A DNA stretch of 42,216 bases, from NCBI GenBank assembly GCA_021730945.1, contig JAKFYH010000051.1, forward strand, positions 1 to 42,216. The letters are read 5' to 3'. This DNA comes from Acidobacteriota bacterium (GTDB taxonomy: Bacteria > Acidobacteriota > Vicinamibacteria > Vicinamibacterales > UBA2999). The position numbers and the translations under genes are program-made. Shown one piece after another: positions 12,892 through 36,668 of this stretch. Position 1 is the stretch's first letter, and every line of letters begins with the position of its first letter. The notes beneath the pieces are model-generated. The model saw only the letters and a list, made by a program, of their open reading frames with translations. It made no database searches and was not told where the DNA came from.

Positions 12892-15309
12892 CTACTCCCC
12901 GCGTAGCGCCGTGATGGGATCGACCCCGAGCGCCCGCCGCGCCGGCATCACGCTCGCCACCAGCGCCGTGACGATCATGATGCCCGCCGTCAGCGCAAAC
13001 GACGCCACGTCCAACGGCTGCACCGAATAGAGCTGCGCCTCGACAAAGCGGCCGAGCCCCACCGCCGCCAGTCCGCCCGCGGTCACGCCGACCAGCGCCA
13101 GCGCGAGGCCCTGACCAACGACCAGGCGCATCAGGTTGCCACGGCCGGCGCCAAGCGCCGCTCGCACGCCGATTTCGCGCGTCCGCTGCCCCACCCAGTA
13201 GGCCAGCAGGCCGTAGATGCCAATGATCGCCAGCGTCAGCGCCGTGACTGCGAAGACGCCGGTGAGCCACGTGAGAAACCGGCTGGCGGCCAGTTGCTCG
13301 TCGACCAGGTCTCGCAGCCCGATGACGTTGAACACGGCGATGCCGGCATCGCGGCGGCGAAGCACCTCCACTGCTTGATCCACGATCGCGGCGGCACTGT
13401 CGGTCCGCAGCATGACGGAGAAGGCGCCGGGACGGCCGCTGTAGGGAAAGAAGATGTCCGGATCAGCCGTCGGGTTGCTGGGAATGCCACGCAGGTTGGC
13501 ATCGCGCACGACACCGACGATCGTCAGCCACGGCGCCGGACCACCGGCACTCCCCTGCTTGATGCGGCGGCCGAGCGCGCTGTGGTTGGGCCAGAACCGC
13601 TTGGCCAGGGCCTCGGTCACCATGACGCTTGGGGAATCTTCGGCCATGTCGGCGACGGTGAACGACCGGCCCTCGACCAGGCGAAGGCCAATGGTCTCGG
13701 CGTAGCCGGGCGAGACGCGATGCACGTAGGTGCGAGGCCGGTTGCCATCTTCGACCGGTGCCATGCCCTCAGCCGAATAGAAGATCGCCGCACTGCCACC
13801 GAGCGGGATCGAACTGGACACGCTGGCGTCCGTCACTCCGGGCAGCGCCCGCAAGTCGTCGAGTAACGCCAGCGTCTCGACGCCGCCGCTGACGTTGGCC
13901 AGCGCGGTGGGCTGGGTGCCGGCAACCGGCATGCGCACCCGCAGGCTGACGACCCCATCCGGCTCGAACCCGGGATCGAAGCGGGTCAACGCGGCGAAGC
14001 TGCGGCTGAAGAGCGCCGCCCCCACCAGCAGCGTCACGGTGACGGCGATCTGGCCGGCGACGATCACCTGCAGCGTGCGCCCGCCGCCGCCCCGGGTTTC
14101 GACCGCGCCTTCCCGCAGGTCCTGCGCCAGCGATCGCGCTCGCATGTGACCTAGCGGCGACAGTCCGATCACCACCGTGATCACGACGCCAAGTGCCAGC
14201 ACGAACCCGAACGTCCGCCAGTCGAAGGCGGGCGCGGCGAAACTCGGCAACTGCACCGGACTGAGCGCCATGAGCGCATCGCCGGCCCACAACGCCAGCA
14301 GGCTGCCGGCGGTGCCGCCAATCAATACCACCCAGGCGCTCTCGGCCAGCAGCAGGCGGACCAGGCGGCTCTCATCGGCGCCAATGGCGCGTCGCAGCGA
14401 CAATTCACGGCGCCGCGATTCGGTGCGGGCCAGCAGCAGGCTTGCGACGCTGGCGCAGGCGATCACGAGGACGAAACTGACGGCGCCGAACAGCAAGCCG
14501 ATGGCCGGACGCACTTGCCCGAACACCTCATCAGCCAGCGGCGACACCTCAACGCCGCGCTTGTCGTTCGATGCCGGATACGCCTGCGCCAACTGCCGGG
14601 CGATGGCGCTGACGTCAGCCTGGGCGGCCTCGCGGGTAACGCCGGGCGCCAACCGGGCGAGCGCGGGGAACCACCGGTTCCCGCGCGCCTCCGGTCCGCT
14701 CGACCGCAGGCCGAGCAAAGACACCCAAACGTCACTGGCATCGGAACGGCCGGTGAACCCCGGCGGCGCTACGCCGACTATGGTGTAGATGCGGTCGTCG
14801 AGCTGGAGCGATCGACCGACGATCGCCGGGTCGCGGCCAAATACCCGCGCCCACATCCGCTCGCTGATCATCGCCGTGGCCGGCGCCCCGGCCGCATCGT
14901 CACTCGCCATCAAGGTGCGGCCGACCAGTGGTGTCGCGCCCATTAACGAAAAGTAGTCGCCCGCCACCATTTCGCCAGACACCTGTTCGGGAACCCCCGC
15001 CCCAGAGCGGATGAAATCGTTCTGCGACCACGCCCCCATCAAGTCGAACGAGCGAGCCTGGTTCTTCCAGTCGAGGTAGTCGGGAACGGAAGCGCCTCGC
15101 CGCTCCACGGTCTGCCGTTCGACGTTGCCCCACAGTTCCACCAACCGGGCCGATTCCGGATAGGGCAGCGGCCGCAGCGCCACGGCATCGAGCAACCCGA
15201 ACATGGTCGTCGTGGCGCCGATCCCAAGGGCAAGGGCGAGCACGGCACCGAGCGTGGTGGCCGGGTTCTTCCACAGGGCACGCCAGGCAAAGCGAAGGTC
15301 GGCGGTCAT
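12892..15309 (-). CDS. ADOP-type ABC transporter permease 2
   Basis: This 805-aa permease has the same two-half layout as the other two in the window. An N-terminal membrane segment ends in LALGIGATTTMFGLLD, and R-P-L-P-Y follows. A MacB-like periplasmic domain carries the PDYLDWKN motif near residue 75. A first FtsX block (IACASVASLLLARTESRRREL) and a C-terminal one (REIGVRAALGAGRGN) are both recognisable. The C-terminus ends D-P-I-T-A-L-R-G-E, the usual ADOP ending. The start is ATG 15309. A 12-bp palindrome, TTGCTATAGCAA, lies 6 nt upstream. No ATPase gene adjoins it. It is probably transcribed alone; substrate unknown. Confidence 0.92.
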   Translation of the reverse strand: MTADLRFAWRALWKNPATTLGAVLALALGIGATTTMFGLLDAVALRPLPYPESARLVELWGNVERQTVERRGASVPDYLDWKNQARSFDLMGAWSQNDFIRSGAGVPEQVSGEMVAGDYFSLMGATPLVGRTLMASDDAAGAPATAMISERMWARVFGRDPAIVGRSLQLDDRIYTIVGVAPPGFTGRSDASDVWVSLLGLRSSGPEARGNRWFPALARLAPGVTREAAQADVSAIARQLAQAYPASNDKRGVEVSPLADEVFGQVRPAIGLLFGAVSFVLVIACASVASLLLARTESRRRELSLRRAIGADESRLVRLLLAESAWVVLIGGTAGSLLALWAGDALMALSPVQLPSFAAPAFDWRTFGFVLALGVVITVVIGLSPLGHMRARSLAQDLREGAVETRGGGGRTLQVIVAGQIAVTVTLLVGAALFSRSFAALTRFDPGFEPDGVVSLRVRMPVAGTQPTALANVSGGVETLALLDDLRALPGVTDASVSSSIPLGGSAAIFYSAEGMAPVEDGNRPRTYVHRVSPGYAETIGLRLVEGRSFTVADMAEDSPSVMVTEALAKRFWPNHSALGRRIKQGSAGGPAPWLTIVGVVRDANLRGIPSNPTADPDIFFPYSGRPGAFSVMLRTDSAAAIVDQAVEVLRRRDAGIAVFNVIGLRDLVDEQLAASRFLTWLTGVFAVTALTLAIIGIYGLLAYWVGQRTREIGVRAALGAGRGNLMRLVVGQGLALALVGVTAGGLAAVGLGRFVEAQLYSVQPLDVASFALTAGIMIVTALVASVMPARRALGVDPITALRGE

Positions 15310-16213: not shown

Positions 16214-17083
16214 ATGACACGGACGCTGCTGAAGCGCGAGGCGGCCGCGATTGAACGGCGACTGGCCGCGACAGGCACCGCGGCGAGAGCCAGGGGCGCC
16301 AAAGCCTACCTCAAGAGCCAACTTCACTTCCTCGGCAACGACACGGCTACGCTTCGCGCCGAGGTGCGGCGCTGGCGATTGGCGCACGCGGATTGGGATC
16401 TCGAGGGTCTCGTCGCGCTCGCCGAAGCGCTGTGGCGGCGCGAGGTCTTCGAGCTTCGCAGCTTCGCGCTGATCCTGCTGGTGACCCAGGCGGCAGCCCT
16501 TGAGCCGCGGCACCTGGCTTTCCTCGAACGGCTGCTGCGGGATGCGCACACCTGGGCGCTGGTCGACGAGATCGCGCCGCGGCTGGTCGGCCCCCTGCTG
16601 TTGCGGTATCCACGCACAGTCGGACCAGTCATCGATCGCTGGGCCAAAGACGACGACTTCTGGCTGCGGCGCGCCGCGCTGCTGGCCTTGCTGTTGCCCA
16701 TGCGCCGCGGCGAGGGCGACTGGAAACGCTTTGCCCGTTATGCCGACCCCCTGCTCGAGGACCGCGAGTTCTTCATTCGCAAGGCGATCGGCTGGGTGCT
16801 GCGCGAGGCGGCGAGCCGCGAAGCGGATCGAGTGGTCGCATTCGTGAGACCGCGTGCCGGCCGGCTGTCCGGGGTCACGTGGCGCGAAGCCACGCGTAAG
16901 CTCCCTGCCCCGGTGCGGAAACGACTGACCGCGCGGCGCCATCGGCGCCTTCAGCATCGTCCGACTGCCCGGCAACGAGTTGTCCCTCGACTGAAGGTGG
17001 TCGAATCGCTGCAGCCACCAGTTCAGCGGTCGCGCAGCGCCGTCATCGGGTCGATGCGCGTGCTGCCGCGCGCCGGCAGGTAG
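16214..17083 (+). CDS. AlkD-like DNA alkylation repair glycosylase
   Basis: This is a 289-aa HEAT-like repeat protein of the DNA alkylation repair (AlkD) family, which excises N3- and N7-alkylpurines. Family residues are visible: Trp114 and Asp118 in TWALVDEI, the DDFWLRRAALLALL helix with Arg152/Arg153, and Trp194 in FIRKAIGWVLRE. The core ends near residue 238. The remaining 50 residues are a basic Arg/Pro/Gln tail unlike the core, and its last 61 nt overlap ADOP permease 3 on the other strand. That tail may be a read-through extension. The start is ATG 16214, after a weak AAGCGG site. The gene is divergent from the cupin gene. Confidence 0.85.
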   Translation: MTRTLLKREAAAIERRLAATGTAARARGAKAYLKSQLHFLGNDTATLRAEVRRWRLAHADWDLEGLVALAEALWRREVFELRSFALILLVTQAAALEPRHLAFLERLLRDAHTWALVDEIAPRLVGPLLLRYPRTVGPVIDRWAKDDDFWLRRAALLALLLPMRRGEGDWKRFARYADPLLEDREFFIRKAIGWVLREAASREADRVVAFVRPRAGRLSGVTWREATRKLPAPVRKRLTARRHRRLQHRPTARQRVVPRLKVVESLQPPVQRSRSAVIGSMRVLPRAGR

Positions 17084-19449
17084 CACGCCAGCAGGGCCAC
17101 GGCCATCAGCACCAGCGACACGCCGGCAAACACGGGAACATCGTGCGCGTTGACGCCAAATAACTGGCTCTGCAGGAAACGGGTCAGCGCCACGGCCCCG
17201 GCAAGCCCCATGATCACGCCCAGTGCCGCGGCGCGGACGCCCTGCGCGAGCACCATCCGGAGGATCGCACCCTGGTCGGCGCCAAGCGCCTGGCGAATGC
17301 CGAACTCGCGAACGCGCTGGGTCACGCCGAACGCCAACACGCCGTAAATGCCGAGGCCCGACAGCAAGAGAGCGACGGTACCGAACAACGCGAGTAACAA
17401 CGTGGGCGCGCGGCGCGTCTGCAGCGACCGCCCGATCCACTCGTTCATCGTTCGCACGTCCGCCAGCGGCAGCTCCGGATCGATGGCTTGTACGGCCGCC
17501 CGCACCAGTGATACGAGGTTCTGCGGGTCGATCCCCGACTTCACCACCAACGCCATGCCCGCGCGCGGCTGCTGCGTGACCGGATAGTAGATGCGCTCCT
17601 TGGTTACCGGCTCGCCAAGGTCGATGCTGTTGATCGTCCCGACCACGCCGACGATGGTGAACGGCGTCGAGTCAGGTCCGCCGCGCCGAATCTGCTGCCC
17701 GATCGGGTCCTGGTTGGCGAAGTACCGGCTTACCAGATACTCGTCGACGACCACGACCGGCGGGCTGCCGGGTCCGTCGATGTCGGCGAACAGGCGACCG
17801 CGAACCAACGGGATCTGCATGGCACGGAAGTAGTCGCCGCCGACGATCTCCTGCCGGGCGTGCGGGCCCGCCTCGTTCTCTGCCGGGGTGTAGCCGACAA
17901 TGCTGTACGAGCCTGAACCCACCATGCCGTTGAACGGCACGTTCGACGTCAGGCCGGCCGACGTCACGCCCGGGATCCGCGCCGCAGAGTCGACCAGCCG
18001 CATCCAGAACGCACGTCGCTGGTCCGGTTCGCCGTAGCGAATCGCGGGAAGCGCCAGTTGGGCGGTCAGCAGGTTGTCGCTCGCAAAGCCGGGATTCACG
18101 TCCTGAAGCTTGGCGTAGCTCTTGATCATGAGCCCCGCGCCGACCAGCAGCATCACGGCGACGGCGACCTCCGCCACGACGAGTGCGGTGCGCGTGATGC
18201 CGGTGCTGCGGGTGGCCGATCCCCGCGTGCTGTCGTCACGCAGTACGTCGACCACACTCGATCGCAGGGTGGCGATGGCCGGCACCAGGCCGAACACCAG
18301 CCCTGTCAACACGGCCATGGCCAGGGCAAACAGCAGCACGGGCGCATGCAGCGTGACCGGGGGGCTGCCCGGCAACTGCGGCCCGACCAGCGCGACCAGG
18401 CCCTGCACGCCGGCCGCGCCAAGCGCCAGGCCGCCCACCGCCCCGACCAGCGACAGCACAATGCCCTCGGTGAGCATCTGCCGGATCACGTCGCCGCGGG
18501 CCGCGCCGATGGCGGACCGAATGGCCACCTCGCGGTGCCGGCCGGTCGCCCGCATCAGCAGCAGGTTCGCCACGTTGGCGCACGCGATCAGCAGCACCAG
18601 GATCACGCCCGTCTGCAGGACGAGCAGCGGCGCACGCAGGTCGCCGACCAGCTGATCGCGAATCGGCACCGAGATGCCGGTAAAGCCGCTGGTGGCAAAG
18701 AAGCCAGCCCGGCGCGGCAAGCGCTCGGCCACTCGCGCCACGATGGTCTTCATCTGCGCATCGAGCTGCCCGGTGGTGGCGCCCGGCGCCAGCCGCGCAA
18801 TCATCGCGCTGAACTCGTTGCCGCGGGCGTTGTCGGACCTGTCGTCGGCCGTGAACGAGAACGGCACCAGCAGCGAAATGTCGCGCGCCGGCAGGTCCAG
18901 GTCGGCCGGCAGCACGCCGACGACGCGGTAGGGCACGCCGTCGAGCCGCACGTCGCGGCCGACAATCGACGGATCGGCACCGAACCTCGAGTTCCAGAGA
19001 CCGTAGGTCAGGATCGTGAAGTGGTCAGCGCCGGCCGTGGCCTCCTCCTCGGTGAACGCGCGGCCGAGCGCCGGCAACCGGCCCAGCGTCGAGAAGAACG
19101 ACGGCGTGACACGAAGCGAACGCAGCTGTTCCGGCTGGCCGCCCTCGGCGAGGCTGACGCTGCGCTGCGCGAACAAGGTCGCCTCTTCAATGGCTGGGGC
19201 GGCTGCCTTGCGATCGAGATAGTCGGGAATGGCGACGCTGGCCTGCGGCAAGCCGGTGAGCGGATAGCTGTTCCAGATGAACACCAGGCGGTCCGGCGCG
19301 GCGTACGGCAGCGGCCGCAGCAGGACCTGATAGAGGACGGTGAAGATCGCGGTATTGGCGCCAATGCCGACCGCCAGGGTCAGGATGGCCACCAGCGCGA
19401 AAAGCGGCTGCCGGCGCAGGCCACGGAGGGCGTATCGCAGGTCGGTCAT
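17023..19449 (-). CDS. ADOP-type ABC transporter permease 3
   Basis: This 808-aa orphan permease matches the other two in layout. The N-terminus is MTDLRYALRGLRRQPLF, followed by LAVGIGANTAIF and R-P-L-P-Y. The periplasmic part carries PDYLDRK near residue 77. A first FtsX block (IACANVANLLLMRATGRHRE) and a second (REFGIRQALGADQG) are present. It ends D-P-M-T-A-L-R-D-R. No ATP-binding subunit gene is adjacent. It converges on, and overlaps by 61 nt, the AlkD-like gene. It is divergent from the metallo-beta-lactamase-fold gene across a 146-nt gap. Confidence 0.92.
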   Translation of the reverse strand: MTDLRYALRGLRRQPLFALVAILTLAVGIGANTAIFTVLYQVLLRPLPYAAPDRLVFIWNSYPLTGLPQASVAIPDYLDRKAAAPAIEEATLFAQRSVSLAEGGQPEQLRSLRVTPSFFSTLGRLPALGRAFTEEEATAGADHFTILTYGLWNSRFGADPSIVGRDVRLDGVPYRVVGVLPADLDLPARDISLLVPFSFTADDRSDNARGNEFSAMIARLAPGATTGQLDAQMKTIVARVAERLPRRAGFFATSGFTGISVPIRDQLVGDLRAPLLVLQTGVILVLLIACANVANLLLMRATGRHREVAIRSAIGAARGDVIRQMLTEGIVLSLVGAVGGLALGAAGVQGLVALVGPQLPGSPPVTLHAPVLLFALAMAVLTGLVFGLVPAIATLRSSVVDVLRDDSTRGSATRSTGITRTALVVAEVAVAVMLLVGAGLMIKSYAKLQDVNPGFASDNLLTAQLALPAIRYGEPDQRRAFWMRLVDSAARIPGVTSAGLTSNVPFNGMVGSGSYSIVGYTPAENEAGPHARQEIVGGDYFRAMQIPLVRGRLFADIDGPGSPPVVVVDEYLVSRYFANQDPIGQQIRRGGPDSTPFTIVGVVGTINSIDLGEPVTKERIYYPVTQQPRAGMALVVKSGIDPQNLVSLVRAAVQAIDPELPLADVRTMNEWIGRSLQTRRAPTLLLALFGTVALLLSGLGIYGVLAFGVTQRVREFGIRQALGADQGAILRMVLAQGVRAAALGVIMGLAGAVALTRFLQSQLFGVNAHDVPVFAGVSLVLMAVALLACYLPARGSTRIDPMTALRDR

Positions 19450-31858: not shown

Positions 31859-32713
31859 TCAATGGGTCATGGCGTAGAGCAGGATATCAATGCCCACGGC
31901 GTAGGCTTCCGGCGAGAACTGGAAGAAATAATCGCTGTCTTCGCCTTCGCGCTCCCAGGCATCGGGCATGTCGGTGTTGTGCACCATCACCACCATGAGC
32001 CGGCCCTGGGCATCGGTGATGCCGCGCGCGCTCGGCGGCGACCCGTCTTCATTCCACCGCTCGATCGTGCCGCCGGCGCTGCGCCGCCAGGTATTGATCG
32101 AGGCCATCTGCGGTAACTTGGCCACCGGAAACATGGTGCGCCACACGGCATGGTCGGGCGGCGCCAGGTCGACAAGCGGGTACTGGCCGCGCGGCAGGGC
32201 GCGGCCAATCTGCTCGTCGAACTGCTCGCGCGCCCAACTGCCGTGGTAGTCGCTGACCAGGAGGAAGCCCCCCTTCTCCAGGTAGTCGCGCAGGCGATCC
32301 ACTTCCTCGTCGCTGAAGCGCGCCGTGCCCGCGTCCTCCATGAACGTGAACGGGCACTGAAAGAGCGCATCGTCGGTCAGCCGGACGACGACCGCATCGG
32401 GGATTTCGTCTTCGGTGCCGGTGTTGGCAAGCTTGACCTTGACCTTGGTGAGTTCCGCCAGCCTGACGCTGAAGTTGATGTCGGCGCCGGGGTAGTCGGT
32501 GGCCCAGCCCTGCTTCTCGCGCCGGTCGCTGCGGAACATGACGCGGCAGAAGTTGAAGCTGCCGTCGAAGGTGGCGGCAGTGGGAAACCGGGGCGGAGTC
32601 CGGCCGCCGAAGCCGCCGGCCCAAATCTGCTGGGCCTCGGCCATCGCGACGCCGGCGCCGATCACGCCGAGTATCCCGACCAGGACCCACATCCGTCCGC
32701 TGCCCGACCGCAT
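31859..32713 (-). CDS. Exported DUF4159-domain protein
   Basis: This 284-aa protein has a signal peptide or membrane anchor (residues 1 to about 27) and a DUF4159 domain. Recognisable parts are FNFCRVMFRSDRREK, GWATDYPGADINF, the FSDEEVDRLRDYLEKGGFLLVSD block, and a late GRLMVVMVHNTDMPDAWE. DUF4159 resembles a Rossmann/ThuA-like fold; function unknown. The ATG at 32713 has GGGAGG 4 nt upstream. The frame stays open to 33160, but that part is antisense to the repeat-protein gene. It lies 103 nt downstream of the repeat-protein gene on the same strand and may be cotranscribed. Confidence 0.87.
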   Translation of the reverse strand: MRSGSGRMWVLVGILGVIGAGVAMAEAQQIWAGGFGGRTPPRFPTAATFDGSFNFCRVMFRSDRREKQGWATDYPGADINFSVRLAELTKVKVKLANTGTEDEIPDAVVVRLTDDALFQCPFTFMEDAGTARFSDEEVDRLRDYLEKGGFLLVSDYHGSWAREQFDEQIGRALPRGQYPLVDLAPPDHAVWRTMFPVAKLPQMASINTWRRSAGGTIERWNEDGSPPSARGITDAQGRLMVVMVHNTDMPDAWEREGEDSDYFFQFSPEAYAVGIDILLYAMTH

Positions 32714-32816: not shown

Positions 32817-35603
32817 CTACTGACCCTGGCGGTCGGCTTCCTCCAGCACCTGGAGGATGTCTTTCCACCGCCCGGGCACGAACCCGCGCAGCGCCCGTTC
32901 CAGGTCGGCAGTCCACGACCGCCCTTGCGAGACGACGTTCTTGCGCGTGTGTTCGACGAAGCGATCGGCGTACTGCTGCGGGGTCCAGCGTTCGAGGCGG
33001 GTCCACATGGCCCACTGGCGGATCGAGTGGAAGTAATCGCCCGGGGAACTGTCGGGCGTGAGCCGGCCGGCCTGTTGCAGCCGTCGACTGGCCGCGAGTA
33101 CGCGTTGCATGGGAGCGAACCGGGCCTGGCGCTCCGGTGCGGCCACGCGGAACACCGCACCGGCCGCGGGAGGGAGCTTGGCGAATTCGGCGCAGTATGC
33201 GTCGAGCTTCATCGTCAGCCGGCTGGTGGCCCGCGCGGCGACCTGCTGGAACTGTTGCCGGAGTTGTCGCTGCGCGTTCTGCTTGAGTGGCTCGACCACC
33301 AATGATTCGCCTGACAGGCGCACCGGCTGATCACTGTCGGACACGAGTTGCACCTCAAAGGCTTCGCCGCTCGATTGGCCCAGGCTCACGATCAGGGCCC
33401 GCACCGTTGCGGGCCGAGGGGGGGCGCGTTGCTGACCGGCGGGCCAGGCCACGCGGGTCACGAACAACCAGGCGGCGCCGGCCTGCTCCTGGCGTGCCGC
33501 CGGCTGCACCAAAGCCGCGCGCGCTACCTCTACGATCATGACTTGTGTCGCGTCGAACACGTCGCCGTTGCCCGATGGCGTCAGCGCCGAATCGGTCCAC
33601 GGGACTTCCAGCGCGCCGCCGGGTGGCATGGCATCGGCCACGCGGCGATCGGGAGGCCGGCAGCGACTGGCGGCGGCCGCCCACGCGGCCTGTAGTCGCG
33701 CGAGCAGCCCGCGCACGCGTTCGCCCAAGACTTCGTCCGACAGCCGCGCCCGCACCGCGTCGAGCGCTGCCACCGTTTCGACCGCGCGCGTGATATCGGT
33801 TGAGAGCCGGCGAACTTCCGCCGTGTGTTCGGGCTTCACGCCGGCCCCTCTCACGGTTTTTGAATCCACGATGTCCTGCGCCAGGCGGGCCAGGTCCTGC
33901 GCCCGGCCGGCGTTCGACAGGCTGCGGTAGTTGGTGTCCGGGTCGACGTTCTGCAGATCGGAGATCTCGATCAGTCGCTCGAGCATCCGGCGGATGTCCT
34001 CGCGGAGCGTCTGTCGAAGCCCGTCGGCCGCGCGCCGGAGGGCGATCGCATCCAGCTCCGCCTGCCGAAGCCGGGCCATGGCCTGCTGAAATGCGGGCTC
34101 ATCGCAGGCGGCAATGGCAGCCTCGGCCGCCGCCTGAGCGCTGGCGATGGCAGTCTCGAGCGCCGCGGCAGCCTGCTGCAGTTCGGCCACCCGCACGTTA
34201 CCGGCGACGCCAGCGCTATCGCCGCCGGCGGGCACCGCCAGCGCGGGCGGATCGACGTGTGTCACGGGGCGCACGCCACGGCAGGCCGGTTCCCTGGCCG
34301 CCCACAAGGCCGTCAGGGCCGCAATCGCCGAATCGGCCCGCGCCGGCAGAATCTGTCGCAGTTCATTGTTGATGCGGTCGACCCGCGCGACTGCTGCCGA
34401 CAGCCGGCCGATTAGCCGGGCCAGGGCGGACACTTCATCCCTCCGGCCGGGGGCGACGGCAGCGCCGAGCCTGACCGTCTTGGAATCGTCCAGGTCGCGC
34501 GCCAGGCGCGCGAGGTCCTCGACGCGACCGGCGTTTGACAGGCTTCGGAAGTTGGTGTCCCCGTCCACGGTGCCAAGGTCGGAAAGCAGATAGATGCGCT
34601 CCAGCGCGCCGCGGATCTCGTCGCGAAGCGCCAGGCGAATCTCGGCCGCGCGCCGGCTGAGCTCGATCGCGTCGCGCTGGACACGGCGCATGGCATCGAG
34701 CGCCGCCTGGACGCCGGGCCCGTCACAGCGATCGACCGCGTGGCGGCCACGCGCGTCGGCCTCGGCGAGTTGAGCTTCGAGCAGGGTCAGCGCGCGCGCG
34801 AGGGCGTCCACTCGAGCTTCGACCGGACCCGACTGCGTTCCGGGTCCGATCTCGACGCTGTTCACGCCGGAAGCCGGCCCCGCGGCGACCGCGGTCACTC
34901 GCGGCGGCACGCCAGCGCACGCCGGTTTACGCGCCTGCCACTCACGCTCGAGTGCCGCGATGGCGGCATCGATCGTCGCGCCGAGCGTCGCGTCGCGCAC
35001 GTCGTTGCGACGACGATCCAGCAGATCGATGGCGGCCACCTGGCGGCCGATGGCTCGCACCAGGGCCGCCACTTCATCGCGGCGCTCGGGGGCCACGCCG
35101 GCGTTGGCCCGTAACGTTCTCGACTCGGCGAGGTCCTTCGCCACGCGAGCCAGGTCGATGCCCCGACCCGCGCGCAGGAGCGACTGAAAATTGGTGTCGG
35201 CATCCACCTGCTCCACCAGCGACACCCGGGTCAGCACGCCGTAGATGTCGCGGACGGTCTCGAGCATGCGGCCGCGAAGTGCGGCGCCCCGGCTCTCGAG
35301 CTGCTGCCGATCGGACTGCACCTGGCGAAGGGCCGCCACCGCGCGCAGCACGGCCGGCTCGTCGCAATTGGCGATCGCGGTCCGGCCGTCCAGCAAGGCC
35401 TGGTCCACGCGTGCCTCCAGGCTGGCGATCTGGCGAATGAACGCCGACACCTCCTCCTCGAACCCGATCACGATCGCGGTGAAGGCGGTATCGCGCTGGG
35501 CGCCGGCTCGGCTCATCGGGAGGAAGACGTGGATCGAAACCAGCGCCGCGAGGGCGACGCGCCAGAGCGACCCGGGACCGGGAAACCTGTGGCGGAGCGT
35601 CAT
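32817..35603 (-). CDS. Large exported protein with three cysteine-bracketed repeats
   Basis: This 928-aa protein is not assigned to a family. A signal peptide (residues 1 to about 36, ending RAGAQ) precedes three helical repeats of about 176 residues at roughly 53-229, 265-441 and 473-648. Each unit opens with a Cys-Asp-x-Pro motif (Cys80, 293, 500), has an Asp-Thr-Asn plus AGR core, and ends in a second Cys (229, 441, 648). The spacing between the two Cys is 149, 148 and 148 residues. Pro/Gly-rich linkers join the units. The last 270 residues differ, with two Cys-poor mixed segments and an amphipathic end. Disulfide closure of each unit is inferred. The ATG at 35603 is chosen because TAGAAT ends 7 nt upstream. 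Confidence 0.8.
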   Translation of the reverse strand: MTLRHRFPGPGSLWRVALAALVSIHVFLPMSRAGAQRDTAFTAIVIGFEEEVSAFIRQIASLEARVDQALLDGRTAIANCDEPAVLRAVAALRQVQSDRQQLESRGAALRGRMLETVRDIYGVLTRVSLVEQVDADTNFQSLLRAGRGIDLARVAKDLAESRTLRANAGVAPERRDEVAALVRAIGRQVAAIDLLDRRRNDVRDATLGATIDAAIAALEREWQARKPACAGVPPRVTAVAAGPASGVNSVEIGPGTQSGPVEARVDALARALTLLEAQLAEADARGRHAVDRCDGPGVQAALDAMRRVQRDAIELSRRAAEIRLALRDEIRGALERIYLLSDLGTVDGDTNFRSLSNAGRVEDLARLARDLDDSKTVRLGAAVAPGRRDEVSALARLIGRLSAAVARVDRINNELRQILPARADSAIAALTALWAAREPACRGVRPVTHVDPPALAVPAGGDSAGVAGNVRVAELQQAAAALETAIASAQAAAEAAIAACDEPAFQQAMARLRQAELDAIALRRAADGLRQTLREDIRRMLERLIEISDLQNVDPDTNYRSLSNAGRAQDLARLAQDIVDSKTVRGAGVKPEHTAEVRRLSTDITRAVETVAALDAVRARLSDEVLGERVRGLLARLQAAWAAAASRCRPPDRRVADAMPPGGALEVPWTDSALTPSGNGDVFDATQVMIVEVARAALVQPAARQEQAGAAWLFVTRVAWPAGQQRAPPRPATVRALIVSLGQSSGEAFEVQLVSDSDQPVRLSGESLVVEPLKQNAQRQLRQQFQQVAARATSRLTMKLDAYCAEFAKLPPAAGAVFRVAAPERQARFAPMQRVLAASRRLQQAGRLTPDSSPGDYFHSIRQWAMWTRLERWTPQQYADRFVEHTRKNVVSQGRSWTADLERALRGFVPGRWKDILQVLEEADRQGQ

Positions 35604-35711: not shown

Positions 35712-36668
35712 CTAGCCGCTCGGCGGTGTATCCATGCGCTGGCCGGTCACGCGATTCCGGCCGGCCGCCTTGCTTTCATACAGGCCGGCATCGCAGCGCG
35801 CCACCATGTCATCCACCACGCTGCCCGCGGGCACGGCCGCATCCCAGCCGGTGACGCCAAAACTCACGGTCAGCGACAACACCTGTCCATGGTGCTCGAT
35901 TGACAGCCGCGCCATGGCGAGCCGGAGTGACTCGGCCACTGCCAGCGCGTTGGCATAGCGCGTCTCGGGCAGCACAATCACGAACTCCTCGCCGCCGTAG
36001 CGCGCGACCCAATCGGTGGCGCGGACATTGGCGCGAATGGCCGCCACCACCGCGGCCAGCACGGTGTCCCCCGCCTGATGGCCGTGGCTGTCGTTGATGC
36101 GCTTGAAATGATCGACATCGCACATCACGAGCGACAGCGCATGCGCGTATCTCACCGAGCGTTCGATCTCGGCGGGCAGTTGCGCCATCAAGTGCCGGCG
36201 GTTGAACGCCCCGGTCAGCGGATCGGTGATCGACAAGCGGCGGTTGTCTTCGTTGGCCGCCCGCAACGAGCGCTCCAGCGTGACAATGCGTTTGCCGGTA
36301 TTGAGGCGCGCCAGTAGTTCCGGTTCGAGGACCGGCTTGGTCAGGAAGTCGTCCGCACCCGCCTGCAAACCGGCCACCACGTGCTCGGTGGAGTGGCGCG
36401 ACGTGACCAGGATGGTGTAGACGTAGCCATCGACCGCCGCCGAACGCACGGCGCGGCACAACGCCACGCCGTCCATTTCAGGCATCTCCCAATCGGTAAT
36501 CAACAGCGGATACGAGTACTCGGCCAGGCGCGCCAACGCGGCCTTGCCATTGTCGGCCGTGTCCACGTCGAACCCGGCACGCTCAAGCAGTCGCGTGGTG
36601 ATGAGCCGCTGCGTCGGCTCATCGTCCACCACCAGGACGCGCCACCGGGCTGGGCGGTTGGATGTCAC
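35712..36668 (-). CDS. Response regulator diguanylate cyclase (REC-GGDEF)
   Basis: This 318-aa cytoplasmic protein has two domains. The receiver domain (about 10-125) has the acidic pair Asp15/Asp16, phospho-acceptor Asp59 in ITDWEMPEMDG, Thr89 and Lys111 in LTKP. The GGDEF domain (about 145-308) has the active-site GGEEF (225-229), metal ligand Asp184 in CDVDHFK, and an inhibitory RxxD site (Arg216-Asp219) five residues before it. It should make cyclic di-GMP under phosphorelay control with product feedback. No sensor kinase is adjacent. The start is GTG 36668. It lies upstream of the repeat-protein gene on the same strand, with a 108-nt gap. Confidence 0.94.
   Translation of the reverse strand: MTSNRPARWRVLVVDDEPTQRLITTRLLERAGFDVDTADNGKAALARLAEYSYPLLITDWEMPEMDGVALCRAVRSAAVDGYVYTILVTSRHSTEHVVAGLQAGADDFLTKPVLEPELLARLNTGKRIVTLERSLRAANEDNRRLSITDPLTGAFNRRHLMAQLPAEIERSVRYAHALSLVMCDVDHFKRINDSHGHQAGDTVLAAVVAAIRANVRATDWVARYGGEEFVIVLPETRYANALAVAESLRLAMARLSIEHHGQVLSLTVSFGVTGWDAAVPAGSVVDDMVARCDAGLYESKAAGRNRVTGQRMDTPPSG

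Follow-up and report, generated by a model that had tools for sequence, protein, structure and literature searches.

An exported acidobacterial protein with three cysteine-paired helical repeats and a C-terminal domain possibly related to thioester domains

The stretch of DNA analysed here (the window) comprises 42,216 nucleotides of an Acidobacteriota genome (GCA_021730945.1, contig JAKFYH010000051.1) and carries, on its minus strand at 32817-35603, a gene for a 928-amino-acid (aa) protein with a signal-like start, three repeat units and a C-terminal domain (CTD). A previous reading made from the letters alone (the sequence-only reading) had described the units, each with one cysteine pair, and had taken them for a new exported domain stapled by one long-range disulfide; its observation is confirmed and its interpretation is partly supported. 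The finding as a whole holds up, though it is understood only in part: the units form a helical repeat that has so far turned up in a single genome and is probably clasped by disulfides, and they are followed by a CTD with a lone cysteine, Cys804, which the sequence-only reading had omitted and which is common to eight other proteins. The open reading frame begins with ATG, has a codon-position GC of 0.77/0.52/0.83 and has homologs elsewhere that match the C-terminal part of the protein at 37-48% identity, which together favour a real gene. All signal peptides and mature ends were assigned by eye, and genomes (G), contigs (C) and fetched stretches (L) are given by our own handles where needed.

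Three helical units with one cysteine pair each

The protein contains seven cysteines (residues 80, 229, 293, 441, 500, 648 and 804). Within units 1, 2 and 3 the paired cysteines are separated by 149, 148 and 148 residues, and the units recur with periods of 213 and 207 residues, exactly as had been counted from the sequence. The motifs C-D-x-P, V-D-x-D-T-N-[FY], A-G-R and D-L-A-R-x-A stand in register across all three units in the alignment, which bears out the Asp-Thr-Asn core, AGR and D-L-A-R-x-A stretch attributed to each. Over some 190 aligned columns, identity with unit 2 is 45% for unit 1 and 43% for unit 3, far above chance. The sequence-only reading had let the units begin at Cys-Asp-x-Pro and run for about 176 residues; the motif is present, but the alignment reaches about 35 residues upstream of it and the model places a helix of about 32 residues before that cysteine, so each unit starts about 35 residues earlier and is about 190 aa long.

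The units were placed in no named family, as had been stated. DUF632 (E 0.34) was the best and only Pfam match of the whole protein, with no significant family and no spectrin-type profile found for the units; no NCBIfam family matched the protein at E<=1, and a profile of the units gave only weak matches to PDB sequences (best E 0.085, uL29). Searched against 162 genomes of the order, the three-unit profile recovered all three units in the genome of origin and matched one further genome, G116 (E 5e-4; 2/162 in total). The G116 match was set aside: it lies within a peptidase-like protein that, by its HEFGH motif, we take to be an M3-type metallopeptidase. Credible matches at the sequence level come from the genome of origin only (1/162).

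An AlphaFold2 model of unit 2, for which units 1 and 3 supplied the only other rows, reached a mean predicted local distance difference test score (pLDDT) of 84 and a predicted template modelling score (pTM) of 0.76. It comprises predicted helices at 3-34, 38-83 and 128-184 plus two short tip helices, on which the DTN, AGR and DLAR motifs sit (confidence about 53-65 per block). The first cysteine (C36) lies between helices 1 and 2 and the second (C184) ends helix 3, so that in an antiparallel bundle both would be at the same end. The model thus suggests that the two cysteines of each unit are close together and probably form a disulfide. The proposed staple stands as to one pair per unit at one end of the bundle, with bonding distance inferred only. 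Fold comparison of the model gave a best Foldseek E of 0.01 and a best VIA-align Z of 12.6, a level that, by the notes of that tool, any helical bundle may reach. The long three-helix bundles of spectrin repeats, the STAT coiled-coil domain and CorA resemble the model at Z of about 9 to 12.6, and they are unlike the units in sequence, with no sequence match. The description as a new repeat domain is therefore fair for the sequence, whereas the modelled fold resembles many unrelated three-helix bundles. The genome of origin has two matches to DsbA-like thioredoxins, consistent with an oxidising periplasm, and three to secretins, which mark the host as diderm.

A shared C-terminal domain and a companion protein

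The CTD occurs in nine proteins from 4/193 genomes of the class, in the C-terminal position in 9/9 and behind N-terminal parts that are unrelated to one another; signal-like starts were read in 8/9, and none was found for the protein at L028. The genome of origin has two copies (this gene and one on another contig), G008 one, G110 three and G047 three, counts that exclude one G047 fragment (a 162-aa frame). A CTD profile matched 2/396 genomes of a phylum sample, both already known, in a scan of low sensitivity that scored five candidates per genome among the matches listed. Other searches with the domain gave little: a tblastn search of plasmids with the L010 CTD found no match, the profile against PDB sequences gave one weak match (a Myb chain, E 0.023), and NCBIfam at E<=10 gave two unrelated families, each matching one of the nine CTDs (E 0.13 and 0.16), and no sorting-signal model. 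At L012:6878-11989, two tandem CTD genes are followed by a short frame with the CTD end only, probably a decayed third copy.

Two motifs recur in the aligned CTDs. All nine carry [YF]C, with the equivalent of Cys804 invariant, and all nine carry QxxPhiW, at a constant distance of 59 residues from the Cys to QxA (in L011, Cys 152 and Gln 211). The residue two after the Cys is hydrophilic in 8/9 (Ala in L028), and the Phi position directly after the Cys is occupied by just Ala in the 928-aa protein. Thioester domains (TEDs; PF08341) carry, in the portions of the literature considered here, the motifs [YFL]C-Phi-zeta and TQxxPhiW, the latter on a helix beside the thioester (PMC4450167, PMC6194298); in the CTDs the Thr of this second motif is replaced by K, R or Q. 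In an AlphaFold2 model of the CTD (pLDDT 83, pTM 0.79), predicted strands are followed by Cys126 (= Cys804), which ends strand 116-126, and then by helices, with Q185 (= Q863) within helix 176-193.

The proteins at L009, L010 and L029 carry, ahead of the CTD, modules that look helical from their sequence and begin with CxxC and end with CxxxC (CxxxxC in L010); L009 has three such Cys-ended modules in tandem. These hairpins resemble the units of the 928-aa protein in having Cys motifs at both ends and in preceding a CTD, but they have two cysteines per end rather than one and show no similarity at E<=1e-4. As unrelated sequences share this plan, Cys-ended modules before a CTD appear to be a recurring layout. 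Stretches resembling HExxH (HENFHSHE and HEFWHAW) precede the hairpin and CTD at L010:6089-8569 and L029:4358-6862, and we assume from this motif that these N-terminal parts may be metallopeptidase-like.

An all-against-all comparison of frames neighbouring the CTD genes yielded a companion protein, 324-346 aa long, that has a signal-like N terminus and matches no Pfam family. It contains two conserved Cys, a hydrophobic stretch rich in Gly and Ala, a linker rich in Pro and a C-terminal part. Within the fetched stretches of 12-16 kb each, the companion adjoins CTD genes at 4/8 loci (G000:C20, G047:C159, G047:C212 and G110:C25). Across 192 genomes of the class, a near full-length companion (profile, E<=3e-54) is present in exactly the four CTD genomes, with one or two per genome; that of G008 is on another contig than its CTD gene. 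By their translations, G000:C20 and G008:C47 have surrounding genes in common, with the CTD gene there in G000 only. The profile matched 45/192 genomes in all, 41 of them only in part and mostly in the Pro-rich and hydrophobic middle; partial matches reaching the C-terminal part include G001, G002 and G023, and G100, G108, G091 and G129 match the N-terminal part only. Genes of OEP, HlyD or FtsX type lie near three companion loci, which suggests a tripartite export system near the companion and CTD loci. From its co-occurrence with the CTD, it is rather probable that the companion is a functional partner or anchor of the CTD proteins.

A companion-like N-terminal domain is joined to a different C-terminal part at L088:7272-8279 (minus strand) and L089:6613-7686 (plus strand); in the former, from G100, that part weakly matches an outer-membrane beta-barrel (E 2e-4, below cut-off). 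Within the window there are also three MacB_PCD/FtsX permease genes, all on the minus strand (37-2685, 12895-15309 and 17026-19449), whose products are about 33% identical to each other. Coordinates of the main features are collected in Table 1.

Table 1. Features of the 928-aa protein gene, its neighbours, and companion and export-type genes at other loci.
Feature	Residues	Coordinates	Strand	Basis
Whole gene, 928-aa protein: signal-like start, three helical units, CTD	1-928	32817..35603	minus	Open reading frame, homologs
Signal-peptide-like N-terminus, ending SRAGA/Q	1-35	35499..35603	minus	Read by eye
Unit 1; Cys80 (35364-35366), Cys229 (34917-34919)	38-236	34896..35492	minus	Alignment
Unit 2; Cys293 (34725-34727), Cys441 (34281-34283)	258-448	34260..34832	minus	Alignment, AlphaFold2 model
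Unit 3; Cys500 (34104-34106), Cys648 (33660-33662)	465-655	33639..34211	minus	Alignment
CTD, TED-like, with upstream Gln segment; core from residue 734 (33404)	679-928	32820..33569	minus	Alignment, AlphaFold2 model
Candidate thioester Gln, upstream Q-x-M-I-V segment (DATQVMIVEV)	687	33543..33545	minus	Inferred only
Invariant lone CTD Cys, end of modelled beta-strand	804	33192..33194	minus	
Helix motif QWAMW (QxxPhiW)	863-867	33003..33017	minus	
Response regulator with GGDEF (diguanylate cyclase), upstream neighbour		35712..36668	minus	Pfam/NCBIfam matches
DUF4159 protein, 284 aa, signal-like start, ATG at 32713, downstream neighbour		31859..32713	minus	
Companion copy		L009:5539-6522	minus	
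Companion copy		L011:4511-5494	minus	
Companion copy		L012:6064-7035	plus	
Companion copy		L027:11013-12050	minus	
Companion copy		L087:2934-3917	plus	
OEP/HlyD/FtsX-type gene		L012:11670-13586		
OEP/HlyD/FtsX-type gene		L027:12312-13787		
OEP/HlyD/FtsX-type gene		L027:13250-15268		
OEP/HlyD/FtsX-type gene		L011:10176-11393		

Probable relation to thioester domains and competing explanations

PF08341 was the sole Pfam family matched by the nine CTDs at E<=10, in two of them (E 0.093 and 0.12), and both matches begin one residue before [YF]C and extend past QxAxW. A scan of 192 genomes of the class with PF08341 gave 14 at E<=1 and two over the cut-off; a scan of the phylum sample gave 0/392, and as no control genome matched either, that result is uninformative. 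Two bridging proteins strengthen the comparison. The one at L032 scores above the TED cut-off (22.9 and 22.8 bits versus 22), and a single-protein scan with it matched 25/192 genomes at E<=0.1, including itself and L042; six further matches were read and had no YC/QxAxW pair, and L041-L060 were checked by a pattern scan. The protein at L042 matches L032 at E 2.2e-6 in its own scan, which reached 4/192 genomes at E<=0.01 and, besides itself and L032, no locus with the pattern. Both L042 and the CTD contain a GxSSGE beta part, [AG]YC and QxAxW. A CTD profile scored 48.4 against L042 over 88 columns that begin at the SSGE part and end shortly after the Cys (60 shuffles, 13.0 +/- 2.4, maximum 19.1), and 36.5 against L032 over 23 columns around the Cys (60 shuffles, 12.8 +/- 1.9, maximum 19.2), with 0/60 shuffles reaching the real score in either case. 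In an alignment of eleven sequences, every row has the same Cys, the same Q, A and W in QxAxW and the same two Gly in G-x-[SA]-x-G. The best PDB match of L032 was Ancillary protein 2 (4c0z, presumably a TED structure; E 0.72), aligned at YC and QxAIW, and that of L042 had E 0.56; tblastn with L042 gave no match in plasmids and four weak partial matches in phages (E 0.2-0.3). Judged from these comparisons, the CTD is reasonably likely to be a distant relative of the TED superfamily rather than a member, and we term it TED-like. Of the two bridging TED-like domains (L042:1232-2185, minus strand; L032:1237-1773, plus strand), one belongs to a short protein that may have a membrane anchor at its N terminus and the other lies between an SH3-like region and WD40 repeats, the anchor and the SH3-like region having been read by eye.

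An internal thioester also needs a Gln, and the Gln of QWAMW was rejected for this role: in the TED literature, as far as considered, the helix Gln of TQxxPhiW is described as not essential, and in class II TEDs the Gln strand is supplied by an inserted domain. The best candidate is Gln687. A Gln-bearing segment lies 47-106 residues before the CTD core in 9/9 proteins, for example DATQVMIVEV (the 928-aa protein), DAFQTMIIEI, DPAFQNLVID and TAVQRLVAER, with AFQVKQVDI of L009 less similar; in the nine-domain alignment the L009 row is cut after FQVKQV, and the Gln aligned there is a different one. A strict Gln motif was found in 7/9 of the stretches upstream, where 4000 shuffles averaged 1.03 and reached at most 5, the loose Q-x-Phi-Phi in 8/9, with 0.25% of shuffles as high, and in a separate motif test the pattern was found in 8/9 against a shuffle mean of 0.26 and maximum of 4; these figures are not clean probabilities, because these are the very sequences in which the motif first drew attention. 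The similar segments AQRMVA (L042) and GQSMVV (L032), which lie between the SSGE part and the Cys strand, suggest at the sequence level a Gln strand that has moved. That Gln687 and its equivalents are the thioester Gln is nevertheless unlikely, and that the CTD forms any internal thioester is possible but doubtful.

On the reading that we tentatively favour, as a real possibility rather than a probable one, the gene product would be an exported protein made of a disulfide-clasped stalk that presents a possibly thioester-reactive head. Each unit would be an antiparallel bundle of three helices whose base is held shut against unfolding by a single long-range disulfide, and the units would act as a stalk or spacer, a lineage-specific choice that other head-bearing proteins replace with different N-terminal parts. 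The CTD would be a distant, rearranged TED relative with its invariant Cys placed after a beta-strand and backed by the QxxPhiW helix. If the chemistry is kept, the CTD Cys and a Gln, for which the upstream segment is the best candidate, would form an internal thioester that reacts with an amine of a partner to give a covalent attachment, and the companion would be the most likely functional partner or anchor. A bolder version of this reading is quite unlikely: a diderm thioester attachment system reversed relative to Gram-positive TIE adhesins, in which diverse exported proteins, some of them on disulfide-clasped stalks, end in a rearranged thioester domain with the Gln strand upstream of the Cys and the head couples covalently either to a dedicated exported companion or to some target that a neighbouring surface presents.

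Several results weigh against a clasped stalk with a thioester-type head. The unit model was built from just three sequence rows, all of them from a single protein, and confidence is low at its tip. The best TED score of a CTD was 13.6 bits against a Pfam gathering cut-off of 22, 7/9 CTDs had no TED match at E<=10, the genome scan with PF08341 (E<=1) matched no CTD place, and no TED was among the structures listed for the CTD model by Foldseek and VIA-align (best Z 4.9). The bridge has gaps of its own: no CTD genome was reached when L032 (E<=0.1) or L042 (E<=0.01) served alone as the query, L042 has no Pfam match at E<=10, earlier profile comparisons were weak (probability 4% with three TED stretches and 20% with a shorter L032 stretch), and L031, a TED over the cut-off, scored 18.7 against a shuffle maximum of 17.6 and aligned outside the Cys. 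The CTD model ends in helices with no strand after them, so the canonical Phi-Q-zeta-Phi-Phi Gln strand is absent; the 928-aa protein (T before Q) and L009 miss the strict Gln motif, and in the model the upstream Gln segment (strand 11-14) may pair only with its neighbour (19-21) as a local hairpin. The number of mature cysteines other than the CTD Cys is even in 6/9 proteins (six in the 928-aa protein) but odd in 3/9, all from G047, so parity backs a special CTD Cys only in part. Lastly, no companion lies near the gene within the 42 kb, the single companion of its genome being on C20.

Some of the same observations could be accounted for by a CTD that is a non-covalent sorting or docking tag, read by the companion or by an export machine, with the Cys and QxAxW as structural leftovers. 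One CTD family behind unrelated N-terminal parts, with up to three complete copies in a genome, near full-length companions (one or two each) in exactly the CTD genomes and the OEP-, HlyD- or FtsX-type genes near three companion loci would all fit such a tag, as would a C-terminal position in every protein, unlike most TEDs, and a model without the canonical Gln strand. Docking alone, however, hardly explains an invariant single Cys together with a TED-like helix motif, and no relevant NCBIfam model was matched; on balance we regard a tag as unlikely, though a serious alternative.

The setting of the gene raises another explanation, a periplasmic sensor or adaptor working with the GGDEF regulator and the DUF4159 protein, with the units binding a ligand or partner and the CTD serving as a structural cap. 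The gene does lie between those of a cyclic di-GMP synthase, a GGDEF response regulator, and a DUF4159 protein, as the sequence-only reading had it, and the three are on one strand with intergenic gaps of about 100 bases. Yet no GGDEF- or DUF4159-like frame was found in the seven other fetched CTD stretches (E<=1e-4), the GGDEF protein has a receiver and a GGDEF domain as its Pfam matches over cut-off, and credible unit matches come from this genome only, which leaves the explanation improbable. Least probable of all is that the Cys pairs link neighbouring molecules in a polymer or mat through inter-chain disulfides: the closeness of the two cysteines within a unit is a deduction that leaves room for such links, but the even spacing (149/148/148), taken with the order of the modelled helices, places the two cysteines of a unit at the same end.

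Comparison with thioester adhesins

In the portions of the literature considered, TEDs are described in Gram-positive surface proteins, mostly at the N terminus (PMC4450167, PMC6194298), and five TED clusters are distinguished among fibrillar adhesins (PMC9210967). A search of the literature for thioester domains together with Acidobacteria, PEP-CTERM or circular permutation found no paper in the collection searched, which is not proof that the arrangement is undescribed. The mere presence of a TED outside Gram-positives is no novelty, since the Pfam family passes its cut-off in 2/192 genomes of the class. If the favoured reading of a clasped stalk with a TED-like head holds, what would be new is a C-terminal TED relative with a moved Gln strand and a dedicated companion gene, and it would offer a clean test of the relocation of a Gln strand along the chain. 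Without the chemistry, CTD and companion, a pair with no match in Pfam or NCBIfam, may instead constitute a sorting system.

The closest points of comparison, as far as the cited descriptions extend, are the TIE adhesins SfbI, Cpa and BaTIE (PMC4450167, PMC6194298). Their TED has, like the CTD, a [YF]C at a strand end (modelled in the CTD) followed by a helical part with QxxPhiW, and they share with the 928-aa protein a signal-like start, repeated modules and a segment resembling Phi-Q-x-Phi-Phi. The CTD differs from their TED in being C-terminal rather than mostly N-terminal, in having its candidate Gln before the Cys with no strand after the helices, and in falling below the Pfam cut-off with no TED in its fold comparisons; the 928-aa protein differs in lacking an LPXTG-like end, in having helical units with Cys pairs instead of isopeptide or ester domains, and in its diderm host. 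The class II TED adhesin TIEpLS20 of the Bacillus plasmid pLS20 (PMC8092201) differs in the same ways, and its mating function is not implied for the 928-aa protein, but in the part of that description considered here it offers a similar overall plan, with a signal peptide and a Cys-Gln head combined with three further domains.

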